DNA from: Colwellia sp.
GTDB lineage: Bacteria; Pseudomonadota; Gammaproteobacteria; Enterobacterales; Alteromonadaceae
Direction of reading: 5' to 3'
DNA length: 56,512 nucleotides
Assembly: GCA_026196955.1 (NCBI GenBank)
Contig: JAPHTO010000110.1
Coordinates: forward strand, 1 to 56,512
The translations under genes and the position numbers were made by a program. Position 1 is the stretch's first letter; each line of letters begins with the position of its first letter. Below, piece by piece: positions 34,909 to 45,543 of this stretch. Under the pieces are notes generated by a model. That model was not told the DNA's origin. It saw only the letters and a program-made list of their open reading frames with translations, and did no database searches.

Positions 34909-34999
34909 CGTTCCCTTATGTGGGCGCTTGTTGTAACAATTGAATATTCTAGCTTTCCTCATAGCTAATCCACCGGTAGTTTTGCTACCGGTTTTTTTT
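34909..34999 (+). ncRNA. small RNA A (paired paralogue family, HexR-linked)
   Basis: A predicted RNA of about 91 nt. It has a promoter (34874-34902), a body, and a terminator: ACCGGTAG (34972-34979) pairs with 34985-34992 and eight T follow. Its core 34946-34969 matches small RNA B at 45477-45500 in 23 of 24 positions and CTTGTTGTAACAATT at 34927-34941 also has a close partner there. The core folds as a 5-bp hairpin, TAGCT/AGCTA, with the pyrimidine-rich loop TTCCTCAT, complementary to a Shine-Dalgarno-like ATGAGGAA. No known family was recognised from the sequence. A trans-acting, probably Hfq-bound regulator is the best guess. Confidence 0.8.
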
Positions 35000-35034
35000 G
35001 CCTGAAATTTAGTAACATTTTTTGAAGAAAATGA

Positions 35035-35277
35035 TTACATAACTTGCTCTAATTCGCTAATAGCTTCATTAATATCATCTATTTTGTTTGCTAAGATTGT
35101 TTGAGCGTCATACAATCCCTGATTATAGAAATGCCCCCCAAGCTCTTTGGTTAAAAAATCTAAAAAGAACTCTGTATCGAATTGGCCTGCATCGCAGTCT
35201 AACTCAGTTTGCAGGTAACTTTGTATTTTGTTGATCAATATTGATTTGTCATCGGTTGTTAGTTTGATTGTTGTCAT
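35035..35277 (-). CDS. DUF2164 family protein
   Basis: An 80-residue soluble protein of unknown function. The family signature is LDFLTKELGGHFYNQGLYDAQTILANKIDDI-like: a helix, then FYNQGLYDA, then an acidic C-terminal helix. It has no signal peptide or membrane segment. The frame could begin at a TTG at 35289, but the ATG at 35277 has GGAC upstream and was chosen. It lies beside the chemoreceptor gene, in the opposite direction. Confidence 0.85.
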   Translation of the reverse strand: MTTIKLTTDDKSILINKIQSYLQTELDCDAGQFDTEFFLDFLTKELGGHFYNQGLYDAQTILANKIDDINEAISELEQVM

Positions 35278-35371
35278 ACTATAGTCCAATTAATTGGTTG
35301 TATTAAATTTTGTTACTATACTTAAGCCGTTTCTACATCCACTAGTTTATAAATAAATTTCAGGGAGACTT

Positions 35372-37351
35372 ATGAGTTTTTCAAACCTTTCTTTTCGAAA
35401 GAAGATTTTGACCTTGCTAGCATTGCCTATGTTAGGTTTTATCTGGTTAAGTGTTAGCGCTATTTTGCAAAGTGCTAATATAAAAAGTGAGATGTCGACT
35501 ATTACTTCATTGACTCAATTATCTGTTGCTTATAGCGAATTAGTGCATGAATTGCAAAAAGAGCGAGGCATGACAGCAGGTTACATTGGCTCTAACGGCA
35601 CTAAATTTATTGCAAAGCTGAAAGAGCAGCGTAAAAACACGGATGAAAAACGCCGTCAGCAAGTGAAGTTTTGGCAAGACAACACCTTTCAATTTGATGA
35701 TATAAATAAGCTGAACACCTCTATCAATCAAGCCTTTAATGACATTGAAAGCATCCGCCAACGAGTTGATTCACAAACCATACCGTTAACAGAAGCGTTG
35801 ACATTTTACACCCTGTTAAATAAAGAGCTATTAAGTGTTGCGGTGACAAATGCAACAATAAGCACAGATGCTTTAGTCACTAAAGAAACGTTGGCTTACT
35901 ATAACTTTTTACAAGGCAAGGAAAGAGCTGGGATTGAAAGAGCAGTATTAAGTAATACCTTTGCAAAAGATGCCTTTGCCGCAGGTATGATGGCAAAATT
36001 TATTACCTTAATGAGTGAGCAAAACACCTACTTTGATAATTTTATTCACTTTACCAATAAGCAAAATCAACAATACTTTAACCAGCAGTTAGATAACGAC
36101 TCTGTGCGCGAGGTTTTAAAGTTAAGGGCGATAGCAAAAAGTAAAACCTCTGGGTTTGATGTTAAAGCCGAGTATTGGTTTGCTCAATCTACTGAAAGAA
36201 TAGGGCAATTAAAGAAAATTGAAAATCACTTGAGCAAAGAGATGCTAACGCTGGTAGAAGAAAAACAAGCAGGCGCACTGAACTCGCTTATTCTGAACTT
36301 ACTTAGCAGTGTTGTGTTAATTGCATTAGCGATTGTTATTAGTTTTAGTACCATCAAAGAATTAATGGCTCGAGTCAAAAGCCTTACTTCAGTCATGGCA
36401 AAAGTTAGACATGATAATGATCTGACTGTACATAGCCCTTTTGAGGGAAGTAGTGAACTAGGGCAAATATCAACATCATTAAATAAAACCTTGGCTCAAT
36501 TTTCTAGTGTTATAAAAGATATCTCTTCTTCAAGTATTACCTTAGCATCTGCGGCGGAAGAAACATCGCAAACTTGTGAAGATAACTCCAAATCATTGTT
36601 TGAACAACAAGACGGTATTACTGTTATTGCTACCGCGATTGAAGAGCTTTCAGCAACGGTAAAAGAAGTCGCAGCAAACACACAAAGTACCGCTACTTCG
36701 GCAAAAGAAGCCGATGAAAAAGCGAATGAAGGTTTAAAAACAGTACAAAAATCTTATCATTCAATTGAGATGTTAGCGACTGACATAGACGGTTTGGCTA
36801 TTCAAATTAACAGCTTGCATGAGAGTAGCAATAATATAACGAGCGTTGTTGATGTGATTAAATCTGTTGCAGAGCAAACAAACTTGTTAGCGTTAAATGC
36901 TGCTATTGAAGCAGCTCGAGCAGGAGAGCAAGGGCGAGGTTTTGCTGTTGTTGCTGACGAAGTAAGAACGCTTGCGCAACGTACACAAGAATCGACCGCT
37001 GAAATAGAAAGCTTTATTTCGTCATTGCAAACGGATGCTAATGCAGCCTTTAATGTCATCGAAACAAGCCAGAAAAAAGCAGAGCAAGCCGTTGAAAACT
37101 CAAAGAATGTTGAGTTAGTTTTAGAAGATATTACCTCTTCTGTTAGCACTATTTTTGCAATGACTGACCAAATTGCCACGGCCATAGAGGAACAAGCCGT
37201 TGTGACGCAAGACGTGGCACAAAATGTTGTTGCGGTTGAGCAAAAATCAATGGAAACGACAACCGGGGCGGATCAAATTGCTGTTACCGCTAAAGAGCAA
37301 GCAAGGTTAGCGACGTCGTTACAAGATATTGCGAGTACATTTAAAGTGTAG
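35372..37351 (+). CDS. methyl-accepting chemotaxis protein with NIT-type sensor
   Basis: A 659-residue transmembrane receptor. TM1 is about 14-33; the periplasmic part contains LVHELQKERGMTAGYIGSNG, the signature of the NIT (nitrate/nitrite-sensing-like) domain with many long helices; TM2 is about 303-325, followed by a HAMP region to about 378. The cytosolic signalling tip, near residue 498, reads SVAEQTNLLALNAAIEAARA and then GEQGRGFAVVADEVRTLAQR. There is no C-terminal CheR pentapeptide. The ligand cannot be read; nitrate or another small anion is only suggested by the domain. AGGGAGA precedes the ATG. Confidence 0.9.
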   Translation: MSFSNLSFRKKILTLLALPMLGFIWLSVSAILQSANIKSEMSTITSLTQLSVAYSELVHELQKERGMTAGYIGSNGTKFIAKLKEQRKNTDEKRRQQVKFWQDNTFQFDDINKLNTSINQAFNDIESIRQRVDSQTIPLTEALTFYTLLNKELLSVAVTNATISTDALVTKETLAYYNFLQGKERAGIERAVLSNTFAKDAFAAGMMAKFITLMSEQNTYFDNFIHFTNKQNQQYFNQQLDNDSVREVLKLRAIAKSKTSGFDVKAEYWFAQSTERIGQLKKIENHLSKEMLTLVEEKQAGALNSLILNLLSSVVLIALAIVISFSTIKELMARVKSLTSVMAKVRHDNDLTVHSPFEGSSELGQISTSLNKTLAQFSSVIKDISSSSITLASAAEETSQTCEDNSKSLFEQQDGITVIATAIEELSATVKEVAANTQSTATSAKEADEKANEGLKTVQKSYHSIEMLATDIDGLAIQINSLHESSNNITSVVDVIKSVAEQTNLLALNAAIEAARAGEQGRGFAVVADEVRTLAQRTQESTAEIESFISSLQTDANAAFNVIETSQKKAEQAVENSKNVELVLEDITSSVSTIFAMTDQIATAIEEQAVVTQDVAQNVVAVEQKSMETTTGADQIAVTAKEQARLATSLQDIASTFKV

Positions 37352-37362
37352 CTTTAAAGAAG

Positions 37363-37394
37363 GCGCTAACTGATATATTGAGTTAGCGCTTTTT
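37363..37394 (+). terminator. intrinsic terminator of the chemoreceptor gene
   Basis: GCGCTAACT (37363-37371) pairs perfectly with 37381-37389 around a 9-nt loop, followed by TTTTT. It begins 12 nt after the stop codon. Confidence 0.85.
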
Positions 37395-45195: not shown

Positions 45196-45364
45196 AAAAA
45201 GATACCTTGTTTAATTTAAAGTCTTGAATTATTCAATGGTATTTAAAGTCTGTCAATAAACAAAGAGCTTATAGTGGTCTGTCAGGTTTAGTTAGGCTCT
45301 GATATTTTGTTCTGGTTAAATTCTCATTATTTATGACGATCCACACACCACAATAGAAAGAGAA

Positions 45365-45378
45365 TTGATCCAGATCAA
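45365..45378. promoter_or_regulatory. FNR-type box upstream of small RNA B
   Basis: TTGAT-CCAG-ATCAA is an exact match to the FNR consensus half-sites and spacing. It is centred near -72 relative to the predicted small RNA start site, close to the -71.5 class I position. It fits an oxygen-controlled RNA, like FnrS in E. coli. The chance rate of a 14-bp match with 4 free bases is not low genome-wide, so it remains a candidate. Confidence 0.55.
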
Positions 45379-45407
45379 CATCAATAGAGTATTTATACTA
45401 TTTTTAC

Positions 45408-45437
45408 TTTACATTTATAGAGTCGTTGCTCTATAAT
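45408..45437 (+). promoter_or_regulatory. sigma-70 promoter of small RNA B
   Basis: TTTACA at 45408-45413 and a perfect TATAAT at 45432-45437 are separated by 18 bp. The start is expected near 45444. No reading frame follows on this strand. Confidence 0.78.
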
Positions 45438-45443
45438 GTCTGT

Positions 45444-45543
45444 GTTCCTTAGCGAACACTTATTGTAATAATTTTTATTCTAGCTTTCCCCATAGCTAAT
45501 ATGCCGATGACTCTTCCTTGTAAGAAATATCATCGGCTTTTTT
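45444..45543 (+). ncRNA. small RNA B (paralogue of small RNA A, Spot 42 position)
   Basis: A predicted RNA of about 100 nt. The terminator stem GCCGATGA (45503-45510) pairs with 45530-45537, followed by six T. The core 45477-45500 differs from small RNA A at one of 24 bases; it forms TAGCT/AGCTA around a TTCCCCAT loop. TTATTGTAATAATT upstream also parallels copy A. It is convergent with engB, the place of spf (Spot 42) in E. coli. Primary sequence beyond TTCTAxCTTTC does not look like Spot 42, so it may be a diverged relative or an independent RNA in the same locus. Confidence 0.8.

Follow-up and report, generated by a model that had tools for sequence, protein, structure and literature searches.

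Why does one genome carry two paralogous candidate genes for small RNAs, and how did each come to lie where it does? The question is raised by a stretch of 56,512 nucleotides from Colwellia sp. (assembly GCA_026196955.1, contig JAPHTO010000110.1, positions 1 to 56,512), here called the window, in which two predicted small RNA (sRNA) genes share a conserved core. A preliminary description made from the letters alone recognized the pair, but it overlooked the tie of both loci to the polA-engB interval, where Spot 42 lies elsewhere, as well as the difference between their upstream boxes, of which that at copy 1 is of the HexR type. From comparisons of sequence and gene order, we consider it likely that copy 1, which we assign to class A, took over the place of Spot 42 and a predicted HexR switch, and that copy 2, of class B, derives from an older sRNA on the engB side. 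We hold more tentatively, with slightly more doubt than conviction, the fuller reading that in Colwelliaceae a duplicate of the neighboring sRNA displaced Spot 42, one of the oldest known bacterial sRNAs, from its own promoter, and that this promoter is an unrecognized switch responding through HexR to 2-keto-3-deoxy-6-phosphogluconate (KDPG), in E. coli too.

Direct comparison confirmed the pair: the 24-mers at 34946 and 45477 lie on the plus strand, differ at one base (23/24 identical), and sit between open reading frames (ORFs) of at least 80 amino acids. A TATAAT precedes each core where it had been placed (34897-34902 and 45432-45437, plus strand), at a spacing of 50 and 46 nt; by sequence reading, the -35 elements are TTGCAT in copy 1 (34874-34879, plus strand, 17 bp ahead of the -10) and TTTACA in copy 2 (45408-45413, plus strand). 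The predicted class A sRNA is about 91 nt long (34909-34999, plus strand), and the predicted class B sRNA, convergent with engB, is about 100 nt long (45444-45543, plus strand), with ends predicted from the fold. The core forms a hairpin, supported by fold and covariation, that reads TAGCT-TTCCTCAT-AGCTA in copy 1 (34950-34967, plus strand; loop T, class A) and TAGCT-TTCCCCAT-AGCTA in copy 2 (45481-45498, plus strand; loop C, class B). Both genes have their own terminators by sequence and fold, a hairpin with a T-run at 34972-34999 and a terminator at 45503-45543 (both on the plus strand), and the earlier label of "perfect" suits copy 1 better because the stem of copy 2 has a large interrupted loop. 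In the window's own assembly (G000; 3.97 Mb, 95.5% complete; G, L, f, and g numbers denote genomes, loci, families, and genera), the 22-base core occurs at up to three mismatches only at these two places, and the reversed pattern does not occur.

A covariance model, R1, built from copies of the RNA as the preliminary description had proposed, found the family in relatives. R1 was built including both window copies, and its scores there (105 bits at 34896-34998 and 99.4 bits at 45431-45543) are not independent. Among 147 genomes of the family, the window's own included, 62 match at E<=0.1, 52 of them at E<1e-8 and 10 at 0.004 to 0.09; by a count from the match list, 44 of the 52 strong genomes hold at least two copies at E<1e-4. 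Because 52 of 147 genomes match at E<1e-8, the observation is beyond chance. A separate pattern scan of named genomes returned 82 stretches, 80 of them listed with names. R1 matches 74 of the 80 and both of the remaining two (L168 and L169, kept outside the class counts); the 74 are labeled Colwellia, Thalassotalea, Cognaticolwellia, Litorilituus, Thalassomonas, Colwelliaceae, Alteromonadaceae, or Gammaproteobacteria, mostly the first two. Named hits include C. psychrerythraea ND2E and GAB14E and T. loyana. The six pattern stretches with no R1 match are labeled Micrarchaeota, Tenacibaculum, Lachnospiraceae (two), Glaciecola, and Flexithrix. The 127 model hits reduce to 120 distinct copies, of which 61 are class A (loop U), 55 are class B (loop C), and 4 (L052, L054, L087, and L115) are unreadable and left out of class counts; all four have a HexR-type box at three or fewer mismatches.

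No Rfam family matches the window at the gathering score, and at lax thresholds all matches at the two loci fall far under gathering scores. With copy 1 as the query, blastn against phage and plasmid records gave no match. The literature on Colwellia, sRNA, and Hfq contains no description of this family in the portions available to us. As the available part of PMC5471319, which predicts sRNAs in Shewanella, includes C. psychrerythraea 34H among the genomes compared, that study may contain an unnamed prediction of the family's RNA.

The unit common to both copies exceeds the core that was first described, taking in a 5' hairpin (GUUC..GAAC) and a linker, CUUGUUGUAAUAAUU, which in copy 1 is the conserved single-stranded CTTGTTGTAACAATT of our alignments (34927-34941, plus strand). 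An alignment of 11 copies, two from the window genome and nine from five relatives, runs through TATAAT, the 5' hairpin, the linker, UAGCU-UUCCYCAU-AGCUA, and a terminator that varies in sequence with its pairing kept. In an alignment of 47 copies from 25 genomes, fitted to the covariance model in a way that favors pairing statistics, 97.6% of cells are paired and both partners vary in 12 of the 17 pairs; neither figure was reached in 500 shuffles. RNAalifold on alignment A4 gave three hairpins and one further pairing, taken as an artifact since it uses promoter bases. Together, the model matches and the pairing support a conserved family of sRNA genes with two paralogs and a conserved promoter and core.

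Both classes also have in common a dyad over the -10, TAGAG-N6-CTCTA, that had gone unremarked. It reads TAGAGCATGTACTCTA in copy 1 (34883-34898), where motif search and alignment of the copies mark it as a candidate operator, and TAGAGTCGTTGCTCTA in copy 2 (45418-45433, by motif search), and its half-sites are complementary at four or five of five bases in 50 of the 61 class A and 52 of the 55 class B copies. The promoter motif TAGAGYNNNTRCTCTATAAT has two exact matches in G000, the two copies only. The dyad was considered as the mark of a wider regulon and rejected: G000 has no further exact match, and 47 weaker ones compared with 45 for the reversed pattern.

This same architecture bears on whether these are independent RNAs at all. 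We find it very hard to credit that they are elements of 3' untranslated regions or leaders, or small ORFs, since both classes have their own conserved promoter and terminator. A 16-codon ATG frame can be seen by eye in copy 1 (34918-34968) and lends that idea some support; no such frame was seen by eye in copy 2, and the one in copy 1 is probably due to chance because the length of the linker varies among relatives, out of frame.

The classes are set apart by the loop base and by what lies upstream of the promoter. A TGTAATTWAATTACA box (TGTAAT-N3-ATTACA type) occurs at up to three mismatches in 56 of the 61 class A copies (dinucleotide shuffles, mean of 1.8 and maximum of 5) and in 7 of the 55 class B copies (mean of 1.4, maximum of 6). 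In the window it stands upstream of copy 1 as TGTAATTAAATTACA (34851-34865), the only exact match in G000, centered about 39 nt before the -10, and in 50 of the 56 class A copies the center lies 38 to 40 nt before the -10, or at about -51 from the predicted start. Class B has an engB-side box of its own, TTTAGAGYAAATACTTYAA, found at up to four mismatches in 38 of 55 copies (shuffle mean of 0.46, maximum of 3) and in none of 61 class A copies; another version of this box, TTAGAGTAAGTACTTTAC, is found at the same threshold in 42 of 55. Upstream of copy 2 this box has diverged to TAGAGTATTTATACTA (45385-45400), the best match in the window, with seven mismatches to TTAGAGTAAGTACTTTAC; in the same-genus loci L049 and L051 it appears by eye to be better kept and shifted up by about one helical turn. 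From the -35 onward, class A matches class B in dyad, 5' hairpin, linker, and core. We read class A as the core promoter and RNA of class B joined to upstream sequence of Spot 42, represented by the box and, in some copies, by the TTACAAAAAGTGCTTT that E. coli also has.

Gene order leads to the same interval. In E. coli K-12, polA and spf (the Spot 42 gene) run in one direction toward a convergent yihA (engB), and the order of polA, sRNA, and convergent engB is found at eight loci of relatives (L080, L081, L082, L105, L124, L135, L143, and L154), where polA stands together with one or two class B-type RNAs and engB; these eight are among ten loci that retain polA with class B-type copies. Elsewhere the arrangement is split; in the window, copy 1 has ubiE as its neighbor, and copy 2 has engB and no polA. 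Of the 61 class A copies, 29 have polA within 1.2 kb upstream (25 of 48 when the flank reaches 1.5 kb or more), as do 14 of the 55 class B copies (11 of 47 with enough flank). For engB on the downstream side, the numbers are 34 of the 55 in class B (29 of 43 when the flank reaches 2.7 kb or more) and 1 of the 61 in class A (0 of 43), the single case being L100. A class A or class A-like copy comes after polA in 13 of 15 genera sampled, the exceptions being g1, the window's genus, and g104. PolA identity was confirmed by Pfam for one locus.

Comparison with other families and genera indicates which RNA is the older. Of 59 engB neighborhoods examined there, the Spot 42 start is present in 35. 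In 12, from families f1, f6, and f15, engB is accompanied by a further RNA that has the class B upstream box, a AGCUUCUCCCC hairpin, and a terminator. A GTAGGGTAC start lies close by in all 12 loci, and in 8 the stricter Spot 42 start is present; the gene order in these other families is polA, Spot 42, related sRNA, and engB. The hairpin is also present in f20 (L289), and in f25 (L268 and L292) the box is present with the hairpin diverged. A second covariance model, R2, was built from nine f6 and f15 copies with no Colwelliaceae, using alignment A8, which left out L235, L283, and L249 and took the place of an earlier 12-copy alignment, A6, that was poor at the 3' side. Applied to the window and 40 Colwelliaceae loci (41 sources), R2 gave 43 hits at E<=1, of which 40, including all of the best 28, fell on family RNAs; the best E was 5e-5, and copy 1 of the window was found at E=0.0018. 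Because a model built without Colwelliaceae recovers the family RNAs, class B is most likely this older sRNA and not a Colwelliaceae invention.

If class A stands in the place of Spot 42, one can ask whether it is Spot 42. The likenesses to spf are the place behind polA, convergent with engB in relatives, a HexR-type box centered at about -51/-52, and an own terminator, in RNAs annotated at 111 nt in K-12 and predicted at about 90 to 100 nt here. The differences lie in the RNA body, which has no match to RF00021 (Spot 42) and no Spot 42 start and folds into other hairpins, and in the dyad over the -10. By annotation, E. coli Spot 42 encodes SpfP. A covariance search with RF00021 gave no match at either window copy at E<=5, nor in G000, and nothing over the cutoff in 40 f1 genomes, 26 of them with strong R1 matches; in the 14 other relatives of the family it gave five hits under the cutoff (E of 5e-11 to 4e-5) and none in the other nine. 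The Spot 42 start, GUAGGGUACAGAGG, is present in 18 loci among L234 to L259 and absent from the window and loci L048 to L167, the search having covered these loci and not whole Colwelliaceae genomes. It strikes us as improbable that class A is a Spot 42 gene so diverged that its body converged on its neighbor or was gene-converted by it: the place behind polA, the kind of upstream box, and AATTACAAAAAGTGCTTT, which spf of E. coli has in common with L004 and other class A copies, would suit such an origin, but class A matches class B from the -35 on (dyad, 5' hairpin, linker, and core), the Spot 42 start is absent from the class A loci examined, and RF00021 matches neither copy 1 nor any part of G000.

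The upstream box is what suggests HexR. In the available text of PMC11906056, the HexR motif for Vibrio parahaemolyticus is letter for letter the window box, and HexR sites upstream of the promoter go with positive control. By this motif, exact in the window and within three mismatches at 56 of 61 copies, class A promoters resemble members of a HexR regulon. G000 encodes one HexR (NF008451, 520 bits against a cutoff of 296) and has two-mismatch HexR-type sites at two positions upstream of hexR and one upstream of gapA. The presence of HexR was set aside as a discriminating test because the protein is nearly universal, exceeding the cutoff in 49 of 50 genomes of the order. Spot 42 genes carry the box as well, at -51 to -53 in 29 of 35 at up to four mismatches (shuffle mean of 0.22, maximum of 2), in 19 of 35 at up to three, and exactly in L284. 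At spf of E. coli K-12 (L254:441-455) the box is TGAAAAAAAATTACA, centered at -52, which is the same 15-mer as the V. parahaemolyticus pgi site in the available text of PMC11906056. We predict that Spot 42 itself is under HexR control across the order, E. coli K-12 included, and, from the site-position rule alone, that HexR would activate rather than repress class A. In the text of PMC3223726 and PMC5343134 that was available, HexR regulates central carbohydrate metabolism and no sRNA is mentioned; the literature on HexR with Spot 42 or spf, partly judged by title, does not make the link in the portions available. In the accessible parts of Neisseria papers with HexR, Spot 42 is only a comparison or reference, and a hexR knockout left the sRNA Bns1 regulated as in the wild type.

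Several observations count against a Spot 42 replacement within a HexR-switched promoter. Some of them favor an alternative that we judge unlikely, namely, that the paralogs are specific to Colwelliaceae, the place behind polA is coincidental, Spot 42 was not replaced, and the box is an AT-rich upstream element rather than a HexR site. In the window's genus, class A adjoins ubiE. Degenerate Spot 42 escapes RF00021, and an absence by this model alone is weak: a Spot 42-like gene readable by eye in L234 is missed, and 9 of the 14 other relatives give no hit. At two mismatches the HexR motif is at background in G000 (31 places, among them a single exact one in the window, compared with 27 for the reversed motif), and chance could therefore account for the boxes near hexR and gapA. 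Genomes of f6 encode HexR yet show no good box at Spot 42; G018 is the reverse, with a three-mismatch box and HexR not over the cutoff. Further points against replacement are that polA accompanies only 25 of the 48 class A copies that could be evaluated, that 5 of 61 class A copies have no HexR-type box at three mismatches and 7 of 55 class B copies have one, that 6 of 61 class A copies have TTAGAGTAAGTACTTTAC at up to four mismatches, and that three R1-positive genomes give RF00021 hits (E of 6e-4 to 9.5e-4) that are without the Spot 42 start and look terminator-only. R2 also misses 7 of 47 copies and reaches window copy 2 only at E=0.079. Coincidence, however, would have to cover the 29 of 61 class A copies behind polA, the ten loci where polA and class B-type copies stand together (engB too in eight), the resemblance of box and spacing to Spot 42 promoters, and the recovery of these RNAs by a model from other families.

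In the replacement history that we favor, the engB-side sRNA would have been duplicated, with the duplicate placed under the Spot 42 upstream region and the HexR box kept; Spot 42 would then have been lost, and a later rearrangement would have parted polA and class A from engB and class B. HexR bound upstream of the -35 would activate class A while its ligand, KDPG, is scarce, and a second factor would act at the dyad over the -10 of both classes. Using its linker and UUCCYCA loop, each RNA would pair with mRNA, probably around ribosome-binding sites and probably with Hfq; because the loop has U in one class and C in the other, the target sets of the two RNAs would partly overlap and partly differ. 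If Spot 42 was replaced within a HexR-switched promoter, then its control region outlived its RNA; the exchange of one sRNA for another under a conserved control region would separate the evolution of sRNA inputs from that of their targets. HexR binding at -52 of E. coli K-12 spf, if true, would link Spot 42 to the Entner-Doudoroff intermediate KDPG besides CRP.

Base pairing as the mode of action is suggested by the sequence features themselves. The genome encodes Hfq, the terminators are U-rich, and the loop is conserved; together with a linker without structure and the C content of the loop, we infer that this fits base pairing. Target prediction with the conserved core, which the preliminary description had proposed, did not succeed in G000: the complement of the core has 15 non-self matches and the reversed pattern 12, which amounts to no target signal and is a further point against our reading. 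A possible start codon lies near four of the 15 matches (L306, L311, L312, and L319); L311 and L312 overlap longer frames, L306 is a 144-amino-acid ORF with no Pfam match at 1e-6, and L319 is a DUF2806 protein. We rejected these matches as targets, as they are not above background. A CsrA-sponge RNA of the CsrB/CsrC type was also rejected, with no GGA in either predicted transcript.

Sibling sRNAs are familiar from OmrA/OmrB and Qrr, where paralogous copies keep a fixed core as they do here; the present pair differs in having no sequence relation to them and no Rfam match at the gathering score. ErsA of Pseudomonas is also an sRNA of the polA-engB interval, a placement not stated in the available text of PMC5819304. 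Class B relatives in other families lie between Spot 42 and engB; in Colwelliaceae, Spot 42 was not found. The closest described neighbor RNA, from the available text of PMC3295665, is VSsrna24 of Aliivibrio salmonicida, an sRNA of the spf-engB interval that is reported to be repressed by glucose and independent of cAMP. It is likened to class B relatives in other families by its place between Spot 42 and engB and not by sequence, and it differs in being about 60 nt long and described as limited to Vibrionaceae.

The flanking genes in the window are ubiE upstream of copy 1 (33841-34746, minus strand; NF001240, 446 bits), a neighbor that recurs in L048, L050, and L052, and engB (yihA) downstream of copy 2 (45561-46178, minus strand; TIGR03598, 244.8 bits). 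About 72 nt upstream of the predicted start of copy 2, at 45365-45378, lies a perfect palindrome, TTGATCCAGATCAA, which we take to be of the FNR type; it is also present in the same-genus locus L049 and is weaker in L051. A TGACGATCCACA-like stretch at 45332-45347, which we would presume to have a weak CRP-like look, recurs ahead of class B promoters in several genera (L070, L005, L067, and L073). A GCCTGAAATTT-like stretch follows the T-run in many copies of both classes, for example from window position 35000 onward.

Unusual arrangements were noted in other genomes. In L100 (5936-6663; Colwellia sp. D2M02), class A and class B stand in tandem right before engB. Three class B-type copies lie in tandem within about 625 nt in L079/L129 (G412 and its named record), where the flanking ORFs look by eye like an RpiR regulator, NagB, and a glycoside hydrolase and not like polA or engB. 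In f12, RyhB (RF00057) lies just beyond the polA-engB interval (L239:4513-4573). Two f20 loci (L282:1540-1720 and L288:1100-1360) hold a further conserved RNA-like element, with the sequence GTGTGAACGCTGCAAACAACAGTTAGTGGTTGTG and a terminator, which in L288 lies between polA and Spot 42.

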